Positions 4,788 to 50,303 of a DNA stretch of 64,000 nucleotides are shown piece by piece (the first letter of the stretch is position 1; each line of letters starts with the position of its first letter). The stretch is from a virus, in the IMG/VR virus record IMGVR_UViG_3300036790_000551, positions 1 to 64,000 of that record; one strand, written 5' to 3'. The notes under the pieces are model-generated. The model saw only the letters and a list, made by a program, of their open reading frames with translations, ran no database searches and was not told where the DNA came from. Both the position numbers and the translations under genes were made by a program.

Positions 4788-4862
4788 GCCCCCGTAGTTC
4801 AACGTTAGAACAACCGGCTTTTAACCGGGAGACACGCCGTTAAACTCGGTGCGGGGGCACCA
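4788..4862 (+). tRNA. tRNA-Lys (anticodon TTT), CCA encoded
   Basis: A perfect 7-bp acceptor (GCCCCCG with CGGGGGC), a D arm (GTTC AACGTTA GAAC), an anticodon arm with loop CTTTTAA (anticodon TTT) and a T arm (CGCCG TTAAACT CGGTG), then A and CCA. The D loop lacks the usual GG and the T loop departs from TTCGAAT, so the elbow contacts may be weak. The overall cloverleaf is convincing. Confidence 0.8.
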
Positions 4863-4968: not shown

Positions 4969-5046
4969 GGTCCATTAAGGCTCACCGGTAGAGCGCCGAG
5001 ACTAATGACCTCGGGTGAGTGGGTTCGATTCCCACATGGACCTCCA
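4969..5046 (+). tRNA. tRNA with an apparent 9-nt anticodon loop, CCA encoded
   Basis: A perfect acceptor (GGTCCAT with ATGGACC), a D arm (GCTC ACCGGTA GAGC), a canonical T arm (GTGGG TTCGATT CCCAC), then T and CCA. The anticodon stem CCGAG/CTCGG closes a 9-nt loop, ACTAATGAC, instead of 7. If the closing A-C is counted as a mismatch pair the loop CTAATGA would give anticodon AAT (Ile). The connector before the D stem is also 2 nt long. Confidence 0.7.
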
Positions 5047-14955: not shown

Positions 14956-15987
14956 GTGCAACTCGACGGCTGGATTCACCACAGCGTGGCCGATGACTTC
15001 GGTCCGCTGCTCAAGTTGGCCCTGACCGGCAGTCGGCCGCTCGCCTGCCTCGGTCCGGTCTATGAGACCGACCCGGCCCATGAACTTCTGGAACCCTTTC
15101 GGAGGTCGGCTCGGGAGTCCGGCCATCCGTGGACCTCGGAGGAGGAAATGATACCCCCTCAGACGCTCCTGCAGGCCCGAGAACTTAGGCTAGCGGAGTC
15201 CCGGGTTCGGGTTCCCTTTCTCGACTGGGATAAGGCCGTGGAGTGGACCCGTGCCGGCCTGGTTCTTGAGGTTTGTCGACGCCGCGGAGTCCGAGTCCGC
15301 GGCCACGGGACCGTCCATGTGCCCTGGAGACTCAAGGGAACCGTGACCGGTCGCTTCGGGGTTGAACCCGTGCGAATCTCGGGTGACCGGTTGTTCAATC
15401 CGATGATTATACCGACCGACGACCGCTGGACGGTTGTCCCGAGCGCTCCCGGTCGGTCAATCGTCGTGCTTGACTTCATGGCGATGGACCTGTGTTCCCT
15501 CGTGTCCCTGTTGCCTGGGCTCTACGAGCGACTAAAGGGGAACTTCTTTAGTGGGATAAGAATCAGTCACGGGGTGATTGCCGACCACCTAAACGTGGAG
15601 GCGGACGTCGCTAAGCGGGAACTCTTCGTCCACGCCTACGGCGGCCGCTCCCCGCTCGCCGCTGAGTTCGACAGGCATTTCCCTGAGATTTCCGAGGCCC
15701 GTCGTTCACTGGACCACGGTGACATGGCTCGAGTCGTGCAGGAGACGTCAGCCATCGCCTTTCGAGCGGCCCTCTCGCGAGCGCTTCCCCTCCTTCTCGG
15801 CGACGATGTGATGCCTATGTTCACCGTGCACGACGAACTCGTCCTTGACGTTGGACCGGACACCGACCCTGCGATACTCAAACTCTGTTGCGAACTCGAG
15901 GACGGGGCCACGGAGCGCATCGGTGTTCCGTACGGAGTCCGCTGCTCGAGCGGTTCGTCGTACGCGGAGGCGAAGAGGAAACCATGA
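14956..15987 (+). CDS. Reduced family A DNA polymerase (polymerase domain only)
   Basis: 343 residues from GTG. A TGRF motif (131-134) followed by FNPMIIP corresponds to the template-side motif before motif A. Motif A is VVLDFMAMDL (D173; the usual SQIELR is changed and the Arg lost). Motif B is reduced to K220-RELFVHAYG. Motif C is FTVHDELVLDV (H292, D293, E294). There is no 3'-5' exonuclease domain. The two catalytic Asp are kept, so activity is possible, but motif A is divergent. The phage also carries a DnaE-type polymerase (38626), so this enzyme may have a repair, primer-processing or specialised role. Confidence 0.75.
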   Translation: MQLDGWIHHSVADDFGPLLKLALTGSRPLACLGPVYETDPAHELLEPFRRSARESGHPWTSEEEMIPPQTLLQARELRLAESRVRVPFLDWDKAVEWTRAGLVLEVCRRRGVRVRGHGTVHVPWRLKGTVTGRFGVEPVRISGDRLFNPMIIPTDDRWTVVPSAPGRSIVVLDFMAMDLCSLVSLLPGLYERLKGNFFSGIRISHGVIADHLNVEADVAKRELFVHAYGGRSPLAAEFDRHFPEISEARRSLDHGDMARVVQETSAIAFRAALSRALPLLLGDDVMPMFTVHDELVLDVGPDTDPAILKLCCELEDGATERIGVPYGVRCSSGSSYAEAKRKP

Positions 15988-17223: not shown

Positions 17224-17280
17224 GTGCCACCGCCGCTAGTTAAGCGGATGAGCCGCATGATTCCGGGAGTTAAGCCGTGA
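17224..17280 (+). CDS. Possible 18-residue leader micro-ORF
   Basis: GTG at 17224 to TGA at 17280, overlapping the next gene's GTG by 4 bases (GTGA). The coupling is like that of real gene pairs here, so it may be a translated leader. The peptide is basic (PPPLVKRMSRMIPGVKP). Confidence 0.3.
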   Translation: MPPPLVKRMSRMIPGVKP

Positions 17281-17837
17281 GAATCACACGACAAGAGTTG
17301 GCTGAGATGGTCGTGACTGAGGTCCGCCGTCGCCTCCATGAGTTGCACGAGGCCGAGTCCGGGTCAGACAAGCCCAAGAGGAAGAACAGGAAGCCGTCGA
17401 CGAACTCCGCCGACGAGGACCCCGTCCGCAAGGGACCGGGGGTCTCCGGTCCGCAGCCGTCGGGCGACGACGACGACACCGGGCCGAACACCCCGGACCC
17501 CTCCACTCCCGCCGTGGACCAGGACAAGGACCCCGGCGAACCCAGCGTCGACGGCGACCAACCCGACCCGGACGCCGAGGAGCAGGAGGACCAGGACCAG
17601 GACGACGCGGTGGACGCGGACGGCGACAACGGTGAGGAGCCCTCCGGAGCCGTCAATGACTTCGCCAGCGGGAAGACCGTGCAGGCGATAACGATTGAGC
17701 CTGAGAGTTCCATCCTGCCGGGTGCCAAGGAGGTCGTGCTCACGTTTAACGAGACGACGGATTCCATTCGCATACTTGTGACTCCCACCGGCCAAGTGAA
17801 GTTCTTTGCACAGGGTCAGTTGCACGACCTGCCGTGA
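17277..17837 (+). CDS. Acidic low-complexity protein with N-terminal helix and small C-terminal domain
   Basis: 186 residues. Residues 1-23 form an amphipathic helix (RITRQELAEMVVTEVRRRL), an N-terminus common in virion-associated phage proteins. About 30-130 is Pro/Asp/Glu-rich and disordered. The last 50 residues look like a small beta domain (VQAITIEPESS, VVLTFNETTDSIRILV). Function unknown. GTG start. Confidence 0.6.
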   Translation: MRITRQELAEMVVTEVRRRLHELHEAESGSDKPKRKNRKPSTNSADEDPVRKGPGVSGPQPSGDDDDTGPNTPDPSTPAVDQDKDPGEPSVDGDQPDPDAEEQEDQDQDDAVDADGDNGEEPSGAVNDFASGKTVQAITIEPESSILPGAKEVVLTFNETTDSIRILVTPTGQVKFFAQGQLHDLP

Positions 17838-17851
17838 GGGAGTAGAAGCGC

Positions 17852-18157
17852 ATGCCGAACGAGAACGACGAAACGTCTCGGACCGTCTCGCAGCAGGAGG
17901 TCTACATGACCCTGGCTCGACTCGAGGCCGTGGCTGCGACCACCGCGAACGACGTCGGCCAACTCAAGCACACGCTGCTTGAGGGCAACGGAGTCCCGTC
18001 AATCACGGTTCAGGTTGCGACGCTGAACGCCGACATGGCGACGGTGAAACAGCAACTCGCTGACCATCGGATTCCCCGGTCCACGATGATTCCCATGCTC
18101 ATCACAATCATCATCGCGGTGGCGGACATCCTGATGAACTTTCATATGAAGGTCTGA
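17852..18157 (+). CDS. Membrane-anchored coiled-coil protein
   Basis: 101 residues: helical/coiled-coil sequence from about 13 to 70 (EVYMTLARLEAVAATTANDV) and a C-terminal transmembrane segment (MIPMLITIIIAVADILM, about 80-96) with a short basic tail. This tail-anchored topology fits a small holin-like or membrane-tethering protein. Start ATG with GGGAGTAGAAG upstream. Confidence 0.6.
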   Translation: MPNENDETSRTVSQQEVYMTLARLEAVAATTANDVGQLKHTLLEGNGVPSITVQVATLNADMATVKQQLADHRIPRSTMIPMLITIIIAVADILMNFHMKV

Positions 18158-18159
18158 GA

Positions 18160-20418
18160 GTGGCCGGTCGCGAGAACTCCACCGCCATGGCCGTGCTCCC
18201 CGGTGACCCGCCCGGGAGGAACGCCTGCGCCTGGATTCGCGGCCTGCTCGGTGACCGCTCCAAGTTAATCGTTGTAGCCCAGAGCGGGAAACTCGCGCCT
18301 GGCAACTTCGAGCGGCTCCTGCGGGCCTCGATGCCTGACTGCGAGAAGAAACTCCGGGTGATGGACGCGGGCGGCTCCGGACTGGCCGCCGCCGTCAACT
18401 CGGCCGAGCGCAATCGCCTCTATCGACCCGGCCAGGCCCTGCAGGTCTTCTGCGACCGCGAACTCGGCGAGCGGTTCACGCATGAAGTCAAGTCCGGTCA
18501 ACTCAAGTTCGACCCGACCGTCATTCAGGTCCTGCCCTCGGACGTCCCCCGGGACGACCTAAAGGGAATCCTGACCGCGGCGAAGGGCGATGACCTGGCC
18601 GCCCTGCATCGCGTCCTCGACCCCCATGTCTTCTCCAGCCCGGAGGGCGTCGGCGAGTATAAGTCCGCGCTCTTCGATGGACCCGCCGACCCGGACGACG
18701 CCCTCTTCTCCAGCGTCGTCTCGTCGGGACCGCCGCCGAAGCCAAAGAAGAAGAACGAGGGCATCGTGGAGCCCACGTTGGACAGCCAAGCCATCGACGA
18801 GGCCCCCGACAAGATGGTCTCGCTTCAGGCCGCGGAGAAGCGCTGGCCCGACGCCGTCCCGATGATGGACCGCGACCTTCCGCAGGGGGCCGGTAACATC
18901 ACGCTGTTCGTGACTCCCGTGGGGGACCTCGTGGCGAACGTCCGGGGGAGCGGCCAGTATTTTTGGAGCCAAGACGCCGGAGCCTGGATTCCCGGGACCA
19001 AGCCGGGGCAGACGCGCGCCGACCAGGGAAAGCATCGAAGGCGTTGGGCGGTGTGGAACTTCCACGACAACAACCTCTCAGCGACTGAGGCTCAAACTCC
19101 GCAGGAGGCCTTAGAACACTTCTTTGATACCTCACGGGGTGGTGAGAAACTCTCTCGCTTTCGTCCGACCGTTGGCAACCACCCTGTACATTGGGAGTGG
19201 AGTGACTGGGACGTCTATGACGTCTCAACGCCGCAGAAGTTGGCCGCGGTCGCACTGGAGATTGGTAATCAGTTCATCAACCGCGGTGATGCACCGGAGG
19301 ACTTCGCTAGTCACTGGGAGCCCGAGTTCGGTCAGGTGCCGCCATCGGTGATGGACCAGTTGACTGCGCGCTTTGACGCCGCCGGACCAGACGGCGCTGA
19401 TGAGTTAGACGCGTGGTGCCCACACTGTCACTACGTCGGGTATCCGAACCTAGTCGGTGAGCCGTGTCCGGTATGCGCTGATGAGGGTCGACGTACTGTG
19501 ATGACCGCGATGCCTGATAGGAACGAGACCCTCGTCCGCGAGTTCTGGACCGACATCGCTCCCTCCAAGGAGGTGGGCGTCCTCATGGTCCATGACCTGC
19601 TGCGGGCAGTAATGGGTGACCGGGACTTCGAGTCCCTCGAGTACCTGGGCAGCGGTCGCAACGGCTCCGCCTATCGGACGCCCGAGGGACCGGTCCTCAA
19701 GGTCACGACGGACATGGCCGAGGTCGGCTCCGCGATGCGCTTGATTGGCCGGCGGCTGACCCACATCCACGAGGTCTATCGGGTGGCCCCCATCGGCGAC
19801 CCCCCAGGTCGTCTGTACGCCATCCTCCAGGAGGGGGGCCTTGGGGAAGTCCCGGCCTCCTATCGGGAGGAACTCGACCTAGCCTGCGCCATCGTGGAGG
19901 CCGCCGGGGCCTCCCGCTCCCTCCAATGCGGGGACGAGGACGACCTGCTGGCCCGATTGGCGGAGTTCCCGGACGATGAGATGGCCGAGTTCGCGGCCGG
20001 CGTCCTCGACATGTTCTCCGTTCCCGGGATGATGCTGGAGGCCCGGCAGTTCGGGCTCCGCATCGACCTGCACGGGGGCAACGTCCGCCTCCGGGACGGC
20101 TTTCCGGTCCTCGTGGACCTCGGCACGGTCGGCGATGACCCAGAGAGCGAGTCCGAGGGCAATGGCGTGCCTCCTGACCAAGGCGACCGGCTAAGTGAGT
20201 ACGGCACCGGTTCACCGGGGTCAGGCGCGAACGGTCCGCCCACGATGCGGAGTTCCAACTCGTCGTCCTGGTCCTGTGGGGTCGGCGCCCTGAAGCAGCC
20301 GCAGAACCACGTACCCACGGACGACAATGCAACAGAGGACGACCTCGCTCTCGACACCGACATCGTCGGTGGCGGCCTCGACTGGGGCCCCGGCCGCCGA
20401 AACGGCAGCAGTTACTAA
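18160..20418 (+). CDS. Multidomain fusion: nucleotidyltransferase-like, zinc module and kinase-like domain
   Basis: 752 residues from GTG. Residues about 8-170 resemble a divergent phage nucleotidyltransferase-type domain (VLPGDPPGRNACAWIRGLL, KLIVVAQSGK, then DVPRDDLKGIL near the end), without the usual HxGH. About 190-400 is unassigned. A zinc-ribbon (C420, C423, C436, C439) follows. Residues about 490-660 look like a protein-kinase fold: Gly loop GSGRNGS (497-503), K514 in VLKV, I-D-L-H-G-G-N (635-641) and V-D-L-G (652-655) instead of DFG. The last 90 residues are low complexity. It may phosphorylate or bind host proteins; activity is unproven. Confidence 0.55.
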   Translation: MAGRENSTAMAVLPGDPPGRNACAWIRGLLGDRSKLIVVAQSGKLAPGNFERLLRASMPDCEKKLRVMDAGGSGLAAAVNSAERNRLYRPGQALQVFCDRELGERFTHEVKSGQLKFDPTVIQVLPSDVPRDDLKGILTAAKGDDLAALHRVLDPHVFSSPEGVGEYKSALFDGPADPDDALFSSVVSSGPPPKPKKKNEGIVEPTLDSQAIDEAPDKMVSLQAAEKRWPDAVPMMDRDLPQGAGNITLFVTPVGDLVANVRGSGQYFWSQDAGAWIPGTKPGQTRADQGKHRRRWAVWNFHDNNLSATEAQTPQEALEHFFDTSRGGEKLSRFRPTVGNHPVHWEWSDWDVYDVSTPQKLAAVALEIGNQFINRGDAPEDFASHWEPEFGQVPPSVMDQLTARFDAAGPDGADELDAWCPHCHYVGYPNLVGEPCPVCADEGRRTVMTAMPDRNETLVREFWTDIAPSKEVGVLMVHDLLRAVMGDRDFESLEYLGSGRNGSAYRTPEGPVLKVTTDMAEVGSAMRLIGRRLTHIHEVYRVAPIGDPPGRLYAILQEGGLGEVPASYREELDLACAIVEAAGASRSLQCGDEDDLLARLAEFPDDEMAEFAAGVLDMFSVPGMMLEARQFGLRIDLHGGNVRLRDGFPVLVDLGTVGDDPESESEGNGVPPDQGDRLSEYGTGSPGSGANGPPTMRSSNSSSWSCGVGALKQPQNHVPTDDNATEDDLALDTDIVGGGLDWGPGRRNGSSY

Positions 20419-21220
20419 CAACAGCAACAGCAGCAGAAGCGAGACCCGCTTCGGGTGGCGACCGCTGGCCGCCTTCCTGCTCAATGCCGAGTCTCCCCAT
20501 GAGACCGAGGCTCGGCTTGAACTGACGCTCGTGGACGCCCTGGGCCAGGACATAGTCAAGCGAGCCGGGGAGCGGACCCAGAGTCACGACCTGGAAATCA
20601 AGAACAGTGTCTATGCCCGGGTCTTCGGCCTGAGCGAGGGCAAGTACGAGGTCAAGGGTCTCTGGCGAAGGAACGAGTCCTCGGTGTTCGACCGTCGCTT
20701 CAAACTCGGGCGTCGCGGGGAGACGGTTTACGGCCGTCGGGACGCGGCTGTCAAGGCCTTCGCCCTCGGGCTGGAGTCCGAGATTGACGACATCTTGGAG
20801 CACTCTGTCTTCGTGGATAGAAACATCTCCGCTGGGTCCGGTCCGGACGCCCTCCGTAGGTTCGTGGACGACACGCACGACTTCATTGACCGGGCCCTGA
20901 CTCGCCGACATTCCAAGTCATTCGTTGTCCGACTCGAGCGGCTCGCGCGCTCCTCACTGGGAATTCCCAAACTGACGGACGCTGCGCGTCGGGTCCTATC
21001 ATCTGCCGTCCAAGGGCCTGATATCATGGCTGGATTTGCCGATATCGCGGGAGTCTTTTTCGCCGCTGGTCCTATTTACACGTTGGTCAGTCACGACGAG
21101 ATACCGCATTTTCTGTTCTTCGATAGCGCGAGTTCCGAGGGACCGAGGTTGCGATTCGAGGGTGCAGTACCATCCGAAGCAACGTCACTGTCGAAACGAA
21201 AAAGGAAAGAAACGAAATGA
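20327..21220 (+). CDS. Hypothetical protein with overlapping low-complexity N-terminus
   Basis: 297 residues; the first 31 codons lie inside the 3' end of the preceding gene in another frame. The N-terminus is Ser/Thr/Ala-rich, then an alpha/beta region (RLELTLVDALGQDIVKR to KLGRRGETVYGRRD) and helical stretches, ending in a basic tail. No family recognised. The start is uncertain because the overlap is long. The stop overlaps the ssDNA-binding gene (ATGA). Confidence 0.55.
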   Translation: MQQRTTSLSTPTSSVAASTGAPAAETAAVTNNSNSSRSETRFGWRPLAAFLLNAESPHETEARLELTLVDALGQDIVKRAGERTQSHDLEIKNSVYARVFGLSEGKYEVKGLWRRNESSVFDRRFKLGRRGETVYGRRDAAVKAFALGLESEIDDILEHSVFVDRNISAGSGPDALRRFVDDTHDFIDRALTRRHSKSFVVRLERLARSSLGIPKLTDAARRVLSSAVQGPDIMAGFADIAGVFFAAGPIYTLVSHDEIPHFLFFDSASSEGPRLRFEGAVPSEATSLSKRKRKETK

Positions 21221-22083
21221 AACTCGATGAGATTCGCGCCCGCCTGAAGACCCTGCAGGAGGGTCGCCCCAAGAGCAAACGCTGGAAGCCCAAGGACGAG
21301 CACCAGGTCCGCACGCTCCCGCTTCCCGGTGAGGAGGACCTCGCCACGGTCGTGAAGTGGCACTACGGCGTCGACGGCGGCCGCCAGATGTACTGCCCGA
21401 CCACCGACGGCAACGAGTGTGCCTTCTGTGACTTCGTGTCCTACCTTCGCTCGTGGAAGGACGAGAACGGCAAGGACAAGACGAAGGACCGCCGGGACAA
21501 GGACTGGGAGACCATCAAGAAGTTGGACGCGGCGACCAAGCACTACGTTCCAATCGTGGTCCGGAAGAAGGACTCGACGGACGTCGAGGGTCCGTTCCTC
21601 TGGGAGATGACCCCGAAGGTCTATCAGGAACTCCTGAAGATTTGCACGAACGACGACCGCAACGAGGACCACCCGGACGGCGGTGCCCTCCGCGTCCTGA
21701 CCTCAATCATGCACGGCGTCGACCTGACGGTGTCCCTCAAGAAGGCGAACACACCGGGCAACACGACGAGTTACGACAAGACCGAGGTCGAGCCTCGCAT
21801 CAAGTCGAGTCACCTGGTGAAGGGTGACAGGGCGGCGGGTGAGGCCCTAGTGGCCCGCATCCCGTCGATTGACGAGGTTGCCAAGGCCGTCTCCTCCGAG
21901 GAGGCCCAACGGGTCTTCGACGCCTGGATGAGCGGCTCCAGCGCGACCCCGGCCGACAGCGGTGACGCGGGCGTCGAGCACGCCAGCAACAGCGCCGAGA
22001 CCGCGGCGGCGGGCGGCGGCAGCGTCGACGACGTCATCAAGCGCCTCGAGGGCATGCTCGGCGACGACCAGCCGAAGGCCTGA
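21217..22083 (+). CDS. Single-stranded DNA-binding protein, T4 gp32-like
   Basis: 288 residues, near T4 gp32 size. A zinc site fits H49, C60, C68 and C71 (KWHYG, YCPTT, NECAFC), matching the His-x12-Cys-x9-Cys-x2-Cys layout of gp32 with slightly different spacing. A basic N-terminus (RPKSKRWKPKDEH) would serve cooperative binding. The acidic C-terminal tail (VDDVIKRLEGMLGDD) is where gp32-type proteins contact replication partners. It coats ssDNA in replication and recombination together with the RecA protein encoded next but one. A terminator hairpin follows. Confidence 0.8.
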   Translation: MKLDEIRARLKTLQEGRPKSKRWKPKDEHQVRTLPLPGEEDLATVVKWHYGVDGGRQMYCPTTDGNECAFCDFVSYLRSWKDENGKDKTKDRRDKDWETIKKLDAATKHYVPIVVRKKDSTDVEGPFLWEMTPKVYQELLKICTNDDRNEDHPDGGALRVLTSIMHGVDLTVSLKKANTPGNTTSYDKTEVEPRIKSSHLVKGDRAAGEALVARIPSIDEVAKAVSSEEAQRVFDAWMSGSSATPADSGDAGVEHASNSAETAAAGGGSVDDVIKRLEGMLGDDQPKA

Positions 22084-22680: not shown

Positions 22681-23913
22681 ATGCCACCGAAGAAGATGAG
22701 CGAGGTCGAGGCGGCCAGCGCCACCAAGGCCGTCGACCCCAAGACGATGGCGAACGCCATCCGGAAGTCGCTCAACAAGGACGACGAGGACAAGGTCGCC
22801 TGGGACCTCACGAAGGACGACAGCCCGACGTACATCCGCGACTGGGTCTCGACCGGCTCCACGATACTGGACTACATCATCAGCAACCGCCGCAACGGCG
22901 GCATTCCCTGCGGCAAGATAACCGAGTTGCAGGGTGAGGAGAGCAGCGGCAAGTCCCTGCTCTGCGCACACATCATCGCGAACACCCAGAAGAAGGGCGG
23001 CATCGCGGTCTACTTGGACACGGAGAACGCCTCGAACCCGGACTTCATGCGCCGCATCGGCGTGGACCTGGAGAAACTAATCTACGTCCAGCCGGGAACC
23101 ATCGAGAAGTCCTTTGAAATCATCGAGCAGATTGTGGCGACGCTCCGGGCCAAGGCCCCGACGCAGCCGGTGACTATTCTCTGGGACAGCGTCGGCAACA
23201 CCCCGCCGCAGGCGGAGATTGAGGGCGACTACGACCCGAACAGCCGCATGGGCCTGGGTGCCAAGGCGATGGCCAAGGGGCTCCGCAAAATCACCGACAT
23301 GATTGGCAAGGAGCAGATTACGATGGTCTTCACCCAGCCGCTCACGTACCGGATGGACGCCGGCATGTACGGCGACCCGCTGGGAACGAAGTACGGGAAG
23401 GCGCTGCCCTACCACTCCAGCGTCCGGCTCCGCGTCTCGTCCAGCACGAAACTGAAGGACAAGAGCGGTGAGATTTACGGCCTGGTCACGAACGGTCGCG
23501 TCATCAAGAGCCGGCTCGGAACGTCGCATCGGACCTGCAAGTTCGAGATTCACTTCGACTTCGGCATCGACGACGAGGCCTCGTGGTTCCTCGTGCTGCA
23601 CGAGGCCGGCGTGATTGAGAAGGACAACGGCTACTGCTACATCCCCGCGTTGCCGAGCGGTCGTGTCTGGGACAAGGGCGTGCACGCCGGCAAGGACCGC
23701 GGCATCCAGTTCCGAGAGGCCGAGTTCGGGCAACTCTGTCGGGAGGACAAGCGGGTCCGGGCCTGGGCGCTCGACGCCCTAGAGGCCCTGCTCATCGTGA
23801 AGTACGCCGAGCAGCGGCCGATTCGCGAGGGCGAGGAGGTCCCGAACGAGGAGGCCCAGGTCCCGATTAAGACGCCGCCGCCCAACGACGCCCCGGCCGC
23901 GGAGGACGACTAA
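22681..23913 (+). CDS. RecA / UvsX-type recombinase
   Basis: 410 residues. Walker A is GEESSGKS (85-92). YLDTENA and then TILWDSVGN match the RecA ATPase core, and MVFTQPLTYRMD the region before the L2 loop. It forms filaments on ssDNA for strand exchange, working with the gp32-like protein upstream and supporting recombination-dependent replication. The C-terminus is extended, Pro/Glu-rich and acidic. Start ATG after GAGGA. Confidence 0.85.
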   Translation: MPPKKMSEVEAASATKAVDPKTMANAIRKSLNKDDEDKVAWDLTKDDSPTYIRDWVSTGSTILDYIISNRRNGGIPCGKITELQGEESSGKSLLCAHIIANTQKKGGIAVYLDTENASNPDFMRRIGVDLEKLIYVQPGTIEKSFEIIEQIVATLRAKAPTQPVTILWDSVGNTPPQAEIEGDYDPNSRMGLGAKAMAKGLRKITDMIGKEQITMVFTQPLTYRMDAGMYGDPLGTKYGKALPYHSSVRLRVSSSTKLKDKSGEIYGLVTNGRVIKSRLGTSHRTCKFEIHFDFGIDDEASWFLVLHEAGVIEKDNGYCYIPALPSGRVWDKGVHAGKDRGIQFREAEFGQLCREDKRVRAWALDALEALLIVKYAEQRPIREGEEVPNEEAQVPIKTPPPNDAPAAEDD

Positions 23914-34468: not shown

Positions 34469-35342
34469 CGGCACCGGTTCCGCGTTCGTCTTCGTGAAGG
34501 CCGGCGGCCTGCAGGCCAACGTTCGCTTTCGGTTGCCGAACAACTGCGTCCTCAAGCCCAATGACGTCATGGGCCTCGACGAGGTGTGGTTCGTTGACGT
34601 CTGCCCATCGGACCTGACCGACCCGGCCGGCGGACTTCCGTTTCGGGTCATCGACCATCACGTGACGAACGTCCGTCGATTCGATGGTGACCCCCGCTGC
34701 ACGTTCTCCCTGGACCACAGCGGAACGTCGCTGTTGGCCCGAGAGGTCGGGCTCGTGGGCTTTGACCGCCTAGTTCGGGCCCTGGAGGCGTACGACCTCG
34801 GGCGGTTCCATGACGCCGACGGCATGCTGCTAGCCGACCTCGCCTCGACATACGCCCAGGACGAGATGCTGAATCGACTCGTCGGAAGGCTTTCGAAGTC
34901 TGAGAACCTTTACGACAGCCATCCGATTCTCGATAGCGAGTACTTCGTGGCCCGCGCCGAGGGGGTCGCGGGAATGCGTGATGATTGGGCCCGGCGCTGC
35001 GCCCGGTCTGCCTACGTCTTCATCCTCGATGACAACTATGCCCTCGACGACCGCCGGTTCGTGGCAGCCCTCGCGGTCTGTCCGCCTAACTGGACAAACG
35101 CCGTCTCCCAGGCCATCATGGACCGGGACGACTTCAGGTACTGCGGAGCGGACGTGTCAGTGCAGGTCGCCGTCTGCGTCGACCCAAACGGTGGACAGGT
35201 GAGCCTGCGGACCCGGGACGACGCCGTCGACTGTAGTAGGATAGCCGAGGGCTTCGGCGGCGGCGGGCACCGTAAGGCAGCAGGTTTTCGGACCGTCGGC
35301 GGCACCGGCCTCCGCGGTCTCATTGAGGAGATATTCGAATGA
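34416..35342 (+). CDS. DHH-family phosphoesterase (NrnA/RecJ-like)
   Basis: 308 residues from TTG 34416, the only start early enough to keep the first motif. THKNCLDGTGSA (motif I, Asp), VWFVDVCPSD (motif II), RVIDHHVTN (DHH, motif III) and the C-terminal DHHA1 module with GFGGGGHRKAAGF are present in order. Family members degrade short RNA/DNA fragments or cleave linear dinucleotides with Mn ions. It may recycle nucleotides from degraded nucleic acid. Overlaps both neighbours. Confidence 0.75.
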   Translation: MLKPTDRTLLVTHKNCLDGTGSAFVFVKAGGLQANVRFRLPNNCVLKPNDVMGLDEVWFVDVCPSDLTDPAGGLPFRVIDHHVTNVRRFDGDPRCTFSLDHSGTSLLAREVGLVGFDRLVRALEAYDLGRFHDADGMLLADLASTYAQDEMLNRLVGRLSKSENLYDSHPILDSEYFVARAEGVAGMRDDWARRCARSAYVFILDDNYALDDRRFVAALAVCPPNWTNAVSQAIMDRDDFRYCGADVSVQVAVCVDPNGGQVSLRTRDDAVDCSRIAEGFGGGGHRKAAGFRTVGGTGLRGLIEEIFE

Positions 35343-36373
35343 GCCTCAGGGTTTACGGCGACAGTCTGAACTTCATCCATCGGGCGTTGATGCGAGAGTT
35401 AGCGGAGGACCCGGAGTGCGAGAGCGCTCCCCGAGGCAAACCAATCAAGGAACTCATCGCGTCGTCGTTCACGTTGACGGACCCTCGAAACCGGCTCATT
35501 ACGAGTCCGGCCCGGAAGATGAACTACGGGTTCAGCGTCGGGGAGTTCTGTTGGTACCTCCGGGGAGACACGGACCTCGAGACGATGGTCTATTACAACA
35601 AGCGGATGGCCCAGTTCTCTGATGACGGAAAGACCATCAACTCCGCCTACGGAGACAGGATGTTCAATCCGACGCCGGGATACGCCTACGGCGTCATCAA
35701 CGGGAAGTTTGGGCCATACTCCCCGTTCGAGTTTGTGATGGCGGAACTCAAGAGGGACCCCGACAGTCGTCGGGCCGTGATGCACATTAACCGGTCCCAT
35801 GACCTCATCAACGCTGTCTCCAACGGGTCCAAGGACGTCCCCTGTACTATGTCCCTGCAACTCCTCGTCAGGAACCGGAAGTTGCATATGCACGTGCTGA
35901 TGAGGAGCAGCGACATCAATTGGGGGCTTCCTCACGATGTCTTTAGTTTCACGTGCCTCCAAGAGGTCTTTCTCTATGAGTTACAGGCCGCCGGGGTGCC
36001 GGTCGATGACCTGGGGGAGTACCACCACACGGCAGGCTCCCTCCACCTCTATGAGCCATTTTACGGCCTGGCCAAGGAGATAGCGGCCGAGCCCCTTGAG
36101 ACCCCTGCTCCGATGAGCCCGTTCACTCTGGCACAGGTCCAGGGACTGGCTGAGGTGATTGAGCCGGCCATTCGGAACGGAGACCGAGGCAACCTCCTCA
36201 ACGTTGGAACCTCAGAGGGAACGGAGACGCTCTCGTGGATGACCGACCGCCTACTCGACCATCGCGTGAAGCGAGAAGCCGAGGAGGTTGAGCGCAACCG
36301 AAAGGACGCCGCTTTGAACGAACTTAGTCGATTGTCTGAAGAGATTCTTGCCGAGAAGGAGACCGAGAAGTGA
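35339..36373 (+). CDS. Thymidylate-synthase family enzyme, probable dCMP hydroxymethylase
   Basis: 344 residues; ATGA overlap start. ThyA-family core: DPDSRRAVMHIN, catalytic C169 in DVPCTMSLQ, and RSSDINWGLPHDVFSF. Where ThyA has Asn (LGLPFN) this has Asp200 (GLPHD); in T4-type dCMP hydroxymethylases an Asp at this site switches specificity from dUMP to dCMP. HLYEPFY ends the core; a C-terminal 60-residue charged helix is extra. Because a separate ThyX (49425) can supply dTMP, a dCMP-modifying role is likely, giving 5-hydroxymethyl- or methyl-dCMP. A plain thymidylate synthase remains possible. Confidence 0.7.
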   Translation: MSLRVYGDSLNFIHRALMRELAEDPECESAPRGKPIKELIASSFTLTDPRNRLITSPARKMNYGFSVGEFCWYLRGDTDLETMVYYNKRMAQFSDDGKTINSAYGDRMFNPTPGYAYGVINGKFGPYSPFEFVMAELKRDPDSRRAVMHINRSHDLINAVSNGSKDVPCTMSLQLLVRNRKLHMHVLMRSSDINWGLPHDVFSFTCLQEVFLYELQAAGVPVDDLGEYHHTAGSLHLYEPFYGLAKEIAAEPLETPAPMSPFTLAQVQGLAEVIEPAIRNGDRGNLLNVGTSEGTETLSWMTDRLLDHRVKREAEEVERNRKDAALNELSRLSEEILAEKETEK

Positions 36374-38625: not shown

Positions 38626-41600
38626 GTGATTACTCAGATGACTGACCGACGCATCTCCAACCTGCACGGTCATTCATGCTTCAGTTTCCAAGACGGAATC
38701 TGCACTCCCGAGGAAATAATCGAGGCCGCTAAGGCCAAGGGCCTCCGCTCTGTGGCGCTCACGGACCACGGTCACGCACACGGCCACGGCAGGTTCTACT
38801 TGGCCGGCAAGAAGGCCGGAGTCCGCACCCTTCTCGGAATGGAGGCCTATTGCATCAATGACTTCGCCGAGTGGCATGAGTTCAAGGACAAGGTGGCTGA
38901 GGAGAAGCGGGCCCAGAAGGCCGCCGGCAAGGGCGTCGTCCCGTCAATCGACCCGAACGAGGAGCCTGAGGGGCCTGTCGATAAGGCCGCGCTTCTCAAG
39001 GCCATGTCCAAGGTCCTCTATCGCAAGGGCCACCTCGTCCTCCTTGCCCAGAACCGAACCGGCCTCGCGAACATCTACCGCCTCCAGTTCAAGGCCCACA
39101 AGCACGGGTACTACCAGAAGCCGCGCATCGACAAGCGGATGTTGGCCGAGCACGCCGAGGGCATCGTGGCCTCGTCGGCCTGCATGGGCGGAATTCTAAG
39201 CCAGAAAATCTGGGGATTGGAGCGCGGCGAACTCGAGTGGAGCGACGTGGTTCGTGAGGCCCAGGAGTACGCTGAGATATTTCCCGGTCGCTTCTTCCTC
39301 GAACTACAGAGCAACGAGGCGGCGGGCCAACGCTACATCAACGAGCACCTCATCCGGCTCTCCCAGGAGACGGGACTGCCGTTAAACGTCACGATGGACG
39401 CCCACTACGTGGACCCGGAGGACTGGCGCTCACAGCAGATGCTCCACATGCTGATGACCCACCGGGGCGGAAAGGCCCTGACTTTGAACAACCTGCCAGA
39501 GGGTTATTCGTTCGACGTGCGGTCGCTGTTCATCAAGAGCGGCGACGAGTTGTGGGAGAGTTTCCGCCGCCTGAACCCTGAAGTCGACGAGACCACGCTG
39601 GCGCGGGCCTTCGACAACACCCTTTACGCAGACAGTCTCATCAGTGACTTCGAGCCGGACACCTCGATGCGCCTTCCGTCCCTGCCGTATGAGGACACGC
39701 TCGCCGAACTTAGGAGGTCTGCCGCGGCCGGGCTCGTGGCCAAGGGCCTGGTGACCAACGACCAGTACATCGAGCGCCTCAAGTACGAACTCGGCGTCAT
39801 CAAGGAGAAGGGAATCGCGAATTACTTCCTAGTGGTCCGTAACATCTGTGACAGCGCCCGGAAGGAAATGCGCATCGGACCTGGGAGAGGCTCGAGTGCA
39901 GGGTCTTTGATTTGCTACCTGACCGGCATCACGAACATTGACCCGATAGAACACAAGTTGATGTTCGAGCGGTTCATCAACCTGGACCGAGTTGAGTTGC
40001 CGGACATCGACCTCGACTTCGAGGACGTGGACCGCATCAAGGACATTCTCCGTCGCGACTTCGGTGAGGACAACGTTGCGTGTCTCAGCGCCTTCGGAAC
40101 GTCCCAGATTAAGGGCCTGATGAAGGACGTCTGCCGCGTGCACGGCATCGACCACCAGGAGTGCAACCGCACAAACGCCCTCATCGAGCGGGAGATGAAG
40201 GCCCTTTACTCCGAGGGGGAGGGCGTCACTCGGTCGGCAATCACGATTAAACTCGACGACGTCTATCGTCTCAGTCCGTCGTTCAACGCCTTCATCGAGA
40301 AGTATCCCCAGATAGAGCGGGCCATCAAGTCCCTGTACGGCCGCGAGCACCACGTCAGCCGGCACGCCTCAGGCGTCGTCATCGGCGACGACCTGCCGGC
40401 CGAGACCTCTGTCTTCACGTCAAAGGGCGTGGTCCAGGCCTCGTTCACGGACGGAATCGTCGGAAAGACGGCGAGCAGCATGGGCCTGGTGAAGTTCGAC
40501 ATCCTGTCGCTCGCCACGCTCAAGGTCATCGCCAAGGCCCTCGAACTAATTGCCGAACGGACAGGGCGGACCGTGTCCGACGTCGACCGTGAAATCGACC
40601 CGAAAGTCATGGACTTTAACAATCTAGACGTCCTGAAGAAGGTCTTCTGGGAGGGCAACACAACCGGCATCTTCTCCGTGACTTCCGCTGGCATGGTTAA
40701 ACTCTTCCAGCGAGTAAAACCGACCTCATTCGATGACGTTGCCGCCGTTACGGCCCTCTTCCGCCCGGGCCCACTCGGCTCGAAGATGGACGTGATGTTC
40801 GCCAATCGCAAGAACGGCCTCGAGGAGGTCACGTACGACCATCCGATACTCGAGAGCATCATGAAGGACACCTACGGATGTCTCGTCTATCAAGAGCAGA
40901 TGCTGGAAATCGGCCGTCTGATGGGAAAGATGTCATGGAAGGACACCAACCGGCTCCGCAAGTTATTCCTCAAGAAGGACAAGAGCAAGGCGGACGGCTA
41001 CATCGACGAGGAGGAGCGGTACCTCAAGTCCACCCTCATCAAGGGCGTCGTCGAGAATGGGCTCACCGAAGAGCACGGGGAGAAACTCTGGGAGATGTGC
41101 GGGAAGTTCGGGGGCTACGGGTTTAACCGTTCACATTCATATGCCTACGCCATGGTCACGATGCAGACCGCGTACCTGCGCTACCACTACCCGCTCGAGT
41201 TCTTCGCGGCGTTGCTTACGGTCGGTCAGGCCGTCGACCTTCAGACGTACGTGAACGAGATTCGGGCCCAGGGCTTCGAGGTGCTGCCGGTCGACGTCAA
41301 CAGGTCCAAGGCCGCGCACGTCATGGAAGGCAACGCCATCAGGCTCGCCCTCTCCTCTGTGAAGGGCATCGGGCCATCCGCCGTGCAGAAGATTGTGGAC
41401 CACCAGCCCTACGCGGACTGGGAGGCCTTCCTTCTCGACAGCACCTGCTCGAAGACCATCGTGAACGCACTCATCGGTTGCGGGGCCTTCACGGAACTCT
41501 GTCCGGGCCTCTCCGTACGCACCCTGGACGCCCGCCACACCCACTTTCGTGGGGACAAGAAACTCTCCCACAAGAAGAACCGAGACACCGTCCGACCCAC

Positions 41601-42084
41601 GCTGGAGGCCATCTGGGCCGATGCGGATGACCCCATCGAACTGATGGAGCGGGAGCGTGAACTGCTCGGCTTCAACCTTCGCGGGACTCCCTTCGGCATC
41701 AACGGCCGTTACGACAAGGTCGACCGGCTCGTTGAGCAAGGCATCTGCTCCCGCGGTTGGGCTGAGTTCGTCGAGGACCAGTCAGAGCCTGTGCTTGTGG
41801 CCCCGCTCCTGGTGAAGTCCATCAAGGAGCGGGCGCAGAAGAACGGAAAACTCATGGCTTTCCTTCGACTAGAGGACCGTGACGGCAACGATTACGAGGC
41901 ACCGGCGTTCGGTAACGTCTGGGGGCACGTCCGGGAGCACGTCCGGCAGGGGGACGTCTACGTGTGCATCCTCCACCGCAAGGAGGAGGAACCGGACCGG
42001 TTCATCGTGGGGCGGCCGGGTTGGGCCCAGACCGCGAAGTCGGCCCAGCAGAGTTTCATTCCGATTGACAGGCTCACCGTTTAG
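38626..42084 (+). CDS. dnaE: DNA polymerase III alpha subunit (DnaE-type)
   Basis: 1152 residues from GTG 38626 (ATG 38638 also possible). N-terminal PHP domain (NLHGHSCFSF ... VALTDHGHAHG), then the C-family palm with GPGRGSSAGSLICYLTGI and the catalytic PDIDLDFED (D462, D464). Also FRPGPLGSKMD, YGCLVYQEQMLEIGRLMG, a helix-hairpin-helix (VKGIGPSAVQKIV) and a C-terminal OB region. It is close to the usual DnaE length. It is a complete replicative polymerase, which is unusual in a phage that also has a family A polymerase (14956). Clamp and loader genes are not in the window. Confidence 0.9.
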   Translation: MITQMTDRRISNLHGHSCFSFQDGICTPEEIIEAAKAKGLRSVALTDHGHAHGHGRFYLAGKKAGVRTLLGMEAYCINDFAEWHEFKDKVAEEKRAQKAAGKGVVPSIDPNEEPEGPVDKAALLKAMSKVLYRKGHLVLLAQNRTGLANIYRLQFKAHKHGYYQKPRIDKRMLAEHAEGIVASSACMGGILSQKIWGLERGELEWSDVVREAQEYAEIFPGRFFLELQSNEAAGQRYINEHLIRLSQETGLPLNVTMDAHYVDPEDWRSQQMLHMLMTHRGGKALTLNNLPEGYSFDVRSLFIKSGDELWESFRRLNPEVDETTLARAFDNTLYADSLISDFEPDTSMRLPSLPYEDTLAELRRSAAAGLVAKGLVTNDQYIERLKYELGVIKEKGIANYFLVVRNICDSARKEMRIGPGRGSSAGSLICYLTGITNIDPIEHKLMFERFINLDRVELPDIDLDFEDVDRIKDILRRDFGEDNVACLSAFGTSQIKGLMKDVCRVHGIDHQECNRTNALIEREMKALYSEGEGVTRSAITIKLDDVYRLSPSFNAFIEKYPQIERAIKSLYGREHHVSRHASGVVIGDDLPAETSVFTSKGVVQASFTDGIVGKTASSMGLVKFDILSLATLKVIAKALELIAERTGRTVSDVDREIDPKVMDFNNLDVLKKVFWEGNTTGIFSVTSAGMVKLFQRVKPTSFDDVAAVTALFRPGPLGSKMDVMFANRKNGLEEVTYDHPILESIMKDTYGCLVYQEQMLEIGRLMGKMSWKDTNRLRKLFLKKDKSKADGYIDEEERYLKSTLIKGVVENGLTEEHGEKLWEMCGKFGGYGFNRSHSYAYAMVTMQTAYLRYHYPLEFFAALLTVGQAVDLQTYVNEIRAQGFEVLPVDVNRSKAAHVMEGNAIRLALSSVKGIGPSAVQKIVDHQPYADWEAFLLDSTCSKTIVNALIGCGAFTELCPGLSVRTLDARHTHFRGDKKLSHKKNRDTVRPTLEAIWADADDPIELMERERELLGFNLRGTPFGINGRYDKVDRLVEQGICSRGWAEFVEDQSEPVLVAPLLVKSIKERAQKNGKLMAFLRLEDRDGNDYEAPAFGNVWGHVREHVRQGDVYVCILHRKEEEPDRFIVGRPGWAQTAKSAQQSFIPIDRLTV

Positions 42085-49387: not shown

Positions 49388-49425
49388 AGCGTAATGCAAC
49401 GATTGAAGACATGAGGGATGCTTAA
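49246..49425 (+). CDS. C-terminal part of the split small gene
   Basis: 59 residues from GTG 49246: DCTLPLEYIKQHVVD, PIAQFPYGPASAHDL, then acidic helical residues to EDMRDA. It ends with TAATG overlap to thyX, as real gene ends here do. It could be an independent gene starting at GTG, or the frameshifted continuation of 49178. Confidence 0.5.
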   Translation: MDCTLPLEYIKQHVVDTKPIAQFPYGPASAHDLSDFEAYCLEGHAVLKRNATIEDMRDA

Positions 49426-50303
49426 TGCTGATTTCCGCACGCGTCATCGCTGACTCAATCAACCCGGACGGCGACCGCCTGACGACGGTCGAGGCGGTCT
49501 TCAATAGGTGGATACTGGCCGAACTCAACACCCATCGCATGCTGAGTCGGAACTCCGCCAGTTCCCGAGCCATCCCAGTCGCGCGCGTGCTGAAGCAGGT
49601 CTGGCGGGAGCCGGCCTACCCCGTGCACTGGGGCAAGAACCAGGCGGGAATGCAGAGTAAGAGTGAACTCGGAGGACTGCGTCTCTGGTTGGCGAAGCGC
49701 CTCTTCTTCTGGGCCCGCGTCCCCGCGCTGGTCCTCGTTTGGCTCCTCAGCAAGGTCGGCCTCCACAAGCAGGTAGCCAACCGCATTCTGGAGCCCTGGG
49801 TCTGGCACACGGCAATCATCAGCAGCACGACCTGGCACAACTTCTTCAAGTTGCGAGCGCATCCGGATGCCCAGCCCGAGTTCAAGGAGTTGGCTTATAA
49901 GATGAACCAAGCCATTAACTGCAGCGAACCTCGAAGGTTGGAATGGGGTGAGTGGCACCTGCCGTACGCTGACGGGTTGGACGTCAAGACGGCTTCCGGC
50001 GCCGCCGTCCTGCCTTCAATGGTGAAGGTCTCGGCCGCGTGCTGCGCTAGGGTCTCCTACGTTCGACAGAATGACCGGAAGTCTATCGAAGAGGACGTGA
50101 CGCTTTCCGACAGGCTCGGCGCGAACGGACACTTCTCTCCCCTCGAGCATCCGGCCCGGGCGGAGCGCGGCCAATGGGGGAACTTCCGGGGCTGGAAGCA
50201 GGCGCGAAAGTTTTACGCCAATGAATCAGGCGAACCGAAACAGAAGTGCCTCTGTGAGAACGACCTCTACACGTCAGGCTGCCCGACCCACGGGCACAGT
50301 TGA
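49425..50303 (+). CDS. thyX: Flavin-dependent thymidylate synthase ThyX
   Basis: 292 residues. AELNTHRMLSRNSASSRAI (33-51) is the ThyX motif R/T-H-R-x-x-S-x-N-x-x-S-x-R, and LEHPARAERG plus FRGWKQARKF lie in the C-terminal half as in ThyX. An insertion of about 50 hydrophobic residues (LRLWLAKRLFFW ... LVWLLSKVGL, about 84-125) makes it longer than the usual 220-250. A Cys/His-rich end (CLCEND ... CPTHGH) is extra. It makes dTMP from dUMP with FAD and folate. Its presence makes a second thymidylate synthase redundant. Confidence 0.8.
   Translation: MLISARVIADSINPDGDRLTTVEAVFNRWILAELNTHRMLSRNSASSRAIPVARVLKQVWREPAYPVHWGKNQAGMQSKSELGGLRLWLAKRLFFWARVPALVLVWLLSKVGLHKQVANRILEPWVWHTAIISSTTWHNFFKLRAHPDAQPEFKELAYKMNQAINCSEPRRLEWGEWHLPYADGLDVKTASGAAVLPSMVKVSAACCARVSYVRQNDRKSIEEDVTLSDRLGANGHFSPLEHPARAERGQWGNFRGWKQARKFYANESGEPKQKCLCENDLYTSGCPTHGHS

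Follow-up and report, generated by a model that had tools for sequence, protein, structure and literature searches.

A phage protein with nucleotidyltransferase-like and kinase-like domains, from a family whose domain order is shuffled

One gene of a 92.8-kb virus contig raises the question of what kind of protein would combine a nucleotidyltransferase-like domain, a zinc-type cysteine site and a kinase-like domain in one chain, and whether this order is a fixed architecture. The window, by which we mean the whole 64,000-nucleotide stretch of the contig that was analysed, carries this gene at 18160-20418 on the + strand, as is the case for all the domains and neighbouring genes described below. 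From its GTG start to the stop at 20418, the gene encodes 752 residues without interruption, as the sequence-only reading had proposed, and its frame is the best-coding one along nearly the whole length; the only competing frame is that of the following gene (20327-21220), which starts within the last part of the target. Queried directly, the 752-residue protein gave 0 matches in Pfam, PHROGs (E up to 10) and PADLOC and no tblastn match among 50,697 phage records, and NCBIfam returned weak matches confined to the Cys region. Genome contigs scanned with the close clade (the window protein, L002, L003 and L006) gave no match. The entire close clade is missed by current profile libraries and would therefore not show up in annotated phage genomes.

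Relatives were sought in viral contigs with the neighbouring UvsX/RecA-like recombinase gene (22681-23913; phrog_97, E 2.6e-65) as the anchor, and in each locus we inspected the position upstream of a nuclease-like gene, a single-strand DNA-binding protein (SSB) gene and uvsX. Homologs occupied this position in L002, L003, L004, L005, L006, L007, L015 and L017, with L108 as a further relative (a 74% sibling of L017), and the close relatives were 47-51% identical to the window protein across the aligned parts. Because these relatives were found via UvsX, the domain guesses made from the sequence could be confirmed: where direct searches were empty, profiles from the distant relatives were significant for both the nucleotidyltransferase (NTase)-like and the kinase-like domain.

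The kinase-like domain spans residues 471-660 (19570-20139), as delimited by alignment, cross-clade profile, structure model, Foldseek and VIA. The residues expected of it are in place, with a Gly loop at 495-501 (including G497 and G499), K514, Q557-E558, the catalytic loop D636-L-H-G-G-N641 with H638, and D653-L-G655 where DFG would stand. In seven domains of the family, G497, G499, K514, E558, D636, N641, D653 and G655 are invariant, with the distant kinase domains at 23-26% identity. A profile built from members outside the close clade reached the window kinase at E 9.7e-14 (4173 ORFs; the matches listed were family members only), which together with the motif upholds the kinase-like assignment. 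The hits of a PDB profile search were nearly all protein kinases; they were weak (E about 0.01) and their alignments lay over the catalytic motif. Foldseek recovered aminoglycoside phosphotransferases (APH; E 2e-4, probability 1.00) as top matches alongside protein kinases, and in VIA protein kinases and APH were tied (Z 8-9). Among the relatives, there were matches to Bud32 (E 5.7e-6) and to two PHROGs, one of T7 gp0.7-type kinases (E 3.8e-4) and one described as a phage 'kinase' (E 8e-5), and Pfam APH was the best kinase family for L005 and L017, below threshold. No match was obtained by tblastn of the family kinase domains against the phage records.

The domain is nevertheless not a full kinase. 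It stops about 5 residues past DLG, and the VIA alignments end at model residue 656-669. Because the alignments stop there and the last 92 residues are predicted to be disordered, the C-terminal lobe is missing; the catalytic residues claimed earlier stand, in a truncated domain. With aminoglycoside phosphotransferases, Bud32 and T7 gp0.7 the window protein shares the N-lobe, the DxHxxN catalytic loop and the DxG metal site, and it differs from them in that the chain ends after DLG. Such a small and defined fragment (about 200 residues, no C-lobe) is directly assayable. Since PF18762 (Kinase-PolyVal) had no match at E <= 1 in any of eight records of the family, one of them the genome of the window, we did not file the kinase under that family. 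Q557, a candidate for the conserved Gln in the last N-terminal-subdomain strand of Kinase-PolyVal, is found in the window protein, L003, L006 and both L005 kinases, and not in L004 or L007.

The N-terminus had been described as a divergent nucleotidyltransferase, and its fold was borne out. Residues 6-172 (18175-18675) form an NMNAT/cytidylyltransferase-fold domain by alignment, cross-clade profile, model and VIA, in which model residues 6-185 superposed on the archaeal NMN adenylyltransferase 4yp6 (Z 11.6, rmsd 3.8, 150 aligned), ranked first and well above the second match. An outside-clade profile built from L005, L007, L015 and L017 only reached this domain at E 7.7e-4 (4173 ORFs, the matches listed being family members only), and the reciprocal profile recovered all four (E 7e-10 to 7e-4). 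The distant members exceed the cut-off of CTP_transf_like (PF01467), and the NTase domains of L007 and L017 match NMNAT models of NCBIfam.

Catalysis is another matter. Where FQPFHAGH (the HxGH motif) is expected, the window protein reads GDPPGRNAC. L007, L017 and L015 retain HxGH intact, and L005 has a partly degraded version (GRFQPFHRDW). None of the four close members (the window protein, L002, L003 and L006) has it; they share the replacement PPGK/R-N/H. The window clade also has a deletion (VPRDD------ILTA) in place of the ISGTRLR segment (ISxxxR/K motif) kept in L007 and L017. Because both catalytic motifs are lost, the domain is probably a pseudoenzyme; it shares the fold of the archaeal enzyme (4yp6; TIGR01527) without HxGH and ISxxxR, and adenylylation is not expected of it. 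The nucleotidyltransferase claim therefore holds for the fold and probably not for a working enzyme. We take the common PPGK/R-N/H loop to be still under selection in the close clade, and a changed chemistry of the domain may be possible.

Between the two folds, the window protein has 282 extra residues (173-454) compared with its close relatives. Residues 173-240 (18676-18879) are a linker with low-confidence structure and native-like codon usage (GC3 0.90). Residues 241-454 (18880-19521) make up an orphan module, marked out by alignment and codon statistics, that is absent from every relative and was not found in viral contigs, genomes or phages. Its GC3 over residues 281-454 is 0.655, below all 180 control windows, whereas the remaining genes of the window have 0.82 +/- 0.05. 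Because of this atypical codon usage and the absence from all relatives, the zinc-bearing part is a probable in-frame insertion into the conserved NTase-kinase unit; no convincing repeats were seen in the flanking sequences. The four-Cys zinc-type site itself, CPHC-x12-CPVC (C420, C423, C436 and C439; 19417-19476), was verified in the sequence, so that the site stands and the module as a stable part of the fusion does not, being an insertion found in this genome only. AlphaFold parsing was likewise divided, with confident models for the NTase-like part (residues 1-172, pLDDT about 93) and the kinase (about 94), and not for the inserted module, which modelled alone gave pLDDT 57, a best VIA Z of 5.1 and no fold match. 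The best phage match of the module (E 9) was antisense to an annotated gene and was discarded as noise, and an anti-TRAP zinc protein identity of the Cys region (E 0.074) was too weak to go beyond the look of a zinc knuckle.

The relatives answer whether the order is fixed. In L003 (498 aa), nothing separates the NTase-like domain from the kinase; in L006 (763 aa), the N-terminus is much extended and between the two domains lies a weakly supported ParB-like segment (NCBIfam Noc, E 0.005; phrog_3264, E 0.008); in L002 (308 aa), the kinase is absent. The larger proteins carry an InPase domain (Pfam PF18823, E 5e-37) with two kinases and the NTase (L005, 1185 aa), an SLT lysozyme domain with kinase and NTase (L007, 2012 aa), a 2'-5' RNA ligase-like domain with three kinases and NTase (L015, 1178 aa), or three kinases around the NTase (L017, 2281 aa, cut off by the contig end). 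The C-terminal module of the L007 and L017 proteins is homologous to a gene that elsewhere stands separately 3' of the target. In view of these varied arrangements, the domain order at the locus is shuffled and not fixed, and the conserved unit, as the alignments have it, is the NTase-like domain plus the kinase, with a conserved tail of 70-90 residues in addition. The order described for the window protein is new to phages in the databases searched, and as an architecture it is one arrangement of many. The fixed genomic slot allows this domain swapping to be followed.

Some smaller features of these loci can be recorded here. In L015 (3583-7119), the three kinase domains follow one another, and the middle one is without most of the segment from N-lobe to catalytic loop. 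The N-termini of L002 6452 and L006 5454 share (M)P(F/Y)KSQxQRxWM...HPxMAxRWxAHT, which also occurs in a small L005 protein; a GNAT identity for the L006 N-terminus, seen by eye only, had no PDB match and was dropped. A small ORF 5' of the target homolog in L003 (4050-4379) resembles by eye the IF3 C-terminal domain. The KxDG ligase-like domain of L007 and L017 gave no profile match with the S-RIM4 neighbour protein.

The chain ends in a tail of residues 661-752 (20140-20415). Its core, LSE-YGTGSPGSGANGPPTMRSSNSSSWS...DDNATEDD, is conserved in L002, L003 and L006 although predicted to be disordered, and in all close members the tail is the same serine/glycine-rich segment; conservation of this kind makes a signal or binding segment likely. 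Directly before the tail stands a hydrophobic-x-E triplet (LSE, LRE, VNE and VHE in the close four), also present in the distant members L007, L015, L017 and L005 as INE, ISE or VME.

The target gene lies between tail/baseplate-like genes, recognized by eye, and replication genes. Two genes upstream is an acidic protein (17277-17837) conserved in L002 and L003 and without a family match, followed directly upstream by a 101-residue protein with a C-terminal hydrophobic stretch (17852-18157), with counterparts upstream in L002 and L003. The next gene (20327-21220) overlaps the 3' end of the target and corresponds to the module fused C-terminally in L007 and L017, to which it is linked via L015_7026 (E 1.3e-4 and 2.6e-5 with two profiles); its DxE...YEVK pattern, read by eye, suggests a PD-(D/E)xK nuclease. 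A gp32-like single-strand DNA-binding protein (21217-22083; phrog_224, E 1.6e-8) serves with UvsX as a synteny anchor.

What, then, is the protein? It is a member of a so far nameless multi-domain family in T4-like phages of environmental bacteria, and as a kind it belongs with the known polyvalent, or virion-effector, proteins, its parts being known separately as cyanophage virion proteins. Polyvalent-protein kinases have lost the whole C-terminal subdomain and are thought to modify host proteins (Iyer, Burroughs, Aravind, PMC5512222). The family resembles polyvalent proteins (PMC5512222) in its many unrelated enzymatic domains per chain, its cassette-like swapping at one locus, its kinase without C-terminal subdomain but with the active site kept, and its late-gene neighbourhood, and the InPase (PF18823), SLT lysozyme and ParB-like modules of the relatives are typical of the class. 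It differs in that PF18762 is unmatched and no metallopeptidase or ArdC-type hub domain was seen in the family, and no NMNAT-type domain figures among those found in PMC5512222.

The cyanophages provide a second comparison. Mass spectrometry of S-CREM2 virions picked up a cytidylyltransferase together with an APH/ChoK-like kinase, for which the authors allow contamination (PMC10665884; compare S-RIM4, QBQ75066.1), and the role of NMNAT-like proteins and such kinases in cyanophage virions is not agreed. Profile matches (E 9e-12 to 5e-13) place the 'cytidylyltransferases' of S-RIM4, S-H35 and S-CREM1 in one NTase family with the domain described here, and the pair of activities is the same, whereas NTase and kinase are separate genes there and the kinases are linked to those of the family by description only. 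These cyanophage NTases keep GRFNPPTxGH, and their N-termini, MKKFSAFLSEA in S-RIM4 and MKRYTNFLSEA in S-CREM1 (L103 5764-6912, L105 3773-4906), are closely like the T4 internal-protein capsid-targeting peptide; such peptides would support their presence in virions as real and not contamination. The window protein has neither feature: its N-terminus, MAGRENSTAM, is no capsid-targeting-like peptide, and the in-frame stretch 5' of the GTG holds neither a start codon nor such a peptide. In a crude test, capsid-targeting-like N-termini were not enriched in the late genes of the window (4/14 vs 10/45). A T4 gp21-type prohead protease (PF03420) is above cut-off in four of the nine relative records, the four largest, where its genes adjoin T4-type capsid and portal genes by eye. 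Given the protease in relatives, the head-targeted look of the cyanophage NTases and the S-CREM2 detection, we favour delivery with the phage genome as the most economical reading by analogy.

We therefore propose, tentatively and short of an even chance, that the window protein is a virion-delivered, host-modifying mini-kinase with a dead NMNAT-fold scaffold and a swappable zinc adaptor. It would be a late product that is packed into the head and enters the cell along with the phage DNA as infection starts. ATP would then be bound by the Gly loop and K514 of the mini-kinase, which would use D636, N641 and D653 to pass phosphate to a host (or phage) protein, in the manner of T7 gp0.7, which phosphorylates host proteins. 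With the C-terminal lobe absent, the substrate would have to be found via other parts of the protein; the NMNAT-fold pseudoenzyme may act as a binding or scaffolding domain, and the inserted zinc module may determine targeting as an exchangeable adaptor. That the NTase chemistry is lost while the kinase chemistry is strictly retained points to phosphorylation having been kept in this branch, and the fusion of the two folds in phages whose heads are of T4 type suggests a joint function. Against a packaged kinase, the neighbouring replication genes would also fit an ordinary intracellular enzyme, and the kinase, lacking its C-lobe, could be without activity.

The first of these objections leads to a middle or late enzyme that is never packaged and works with SSB, UvsX and the nuclease in phage DNA metabolism. 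Its conserved place just 5' of those genes in the relatives and the N-terminus of the window protein are in keeping with this; yet the locus also bears modules characteristic of packaged polyvalent proteins, among them lytic transglycosylase and pyrophosphatase, and the homologous cyanophage NTases look head-targeted, which leaves an intracellular role unlikely. The top Foldseek matches and the sub-threshold APH hits of L005 and L017 would suit a phosphotransferase of APH/choline-kinase type acting on a metabolite or antibiotic and not on a protein. We regard this as unlikely, since VIA ties protein kinases with APH, the relatives match Bud32 and T7-kinase models, and the APH substrate-binding helices past the metal-binding Asp are missing.

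Could both folds be relics in a degenerate structural or scaffold protein? The lost NTase site, the absent C-lobe and the kinase-free L002 speak for it, but decay would not leave kinase catalytic residues invariant in seven domains at such low identity, and we consider it very unlikely. A role in NAD salvage, in which NMNAT and kinase act like NadR (adenylyltransferase plus ribosylnicotinamide kinase) and raise NAD in infection, draws on the intact motifs and NMNAT-model matches of L007 and L017 and on one cyanophage relative annotated 'bifunctional NadR-like'. The NadR kinase has a P-loop fold, unlike the APH/protein-kinase fold of the window kinase, and both NMNAT motifs are gone in the window clade; on these grounds NadR-type salvage was set aside for the window protein as highly improbable.

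The mini-kinase proposal has a more far-reaching extension. Because the hydrophobic-x-E before the tail is conserved and the protease is found in relatives, the locus could be a cassette system in which T4-like phages of this lineage swap whole enzyme modules inside a single head-packaged polyprotein, and the gp21-type protease would cut (L/I)xE sites of linkers and tail in the prohead, releasing separate enzymes for delivery. The density of (L/I)xE, 1.23 per 100 residues in linkers vs 0.92 in domains, was not convincing, and we hold such processing to be quite unlikely. The same low standing attaches to the set of enzymes that would be delivered in this way, namely nucleases, lysozyme, zinc adaptors, truncated kinases and an NMNAT in live or dead form.

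Elsewhere in the window, a 343-residue protein (14956-15987) matches only the C-terminal part of phrog_17 (DNA polymerase; E 2e-4), and a full-size DNA polymerase is also present (38626-42084; phrog_405), so the shorter protein may be a repurposed polymerase fragment. Two different thymidylate synthase families occur in this one phage, at 35339-36373 and 49425-50303 (phrog_5131/160 and phrog_85). The window further encodes tRNA-Lys (ttt) and tRNA-Ile with the anticodon aat, at 4788-4862 and 4969-5046, the latter anticodon being unusual in a bacterial phage.
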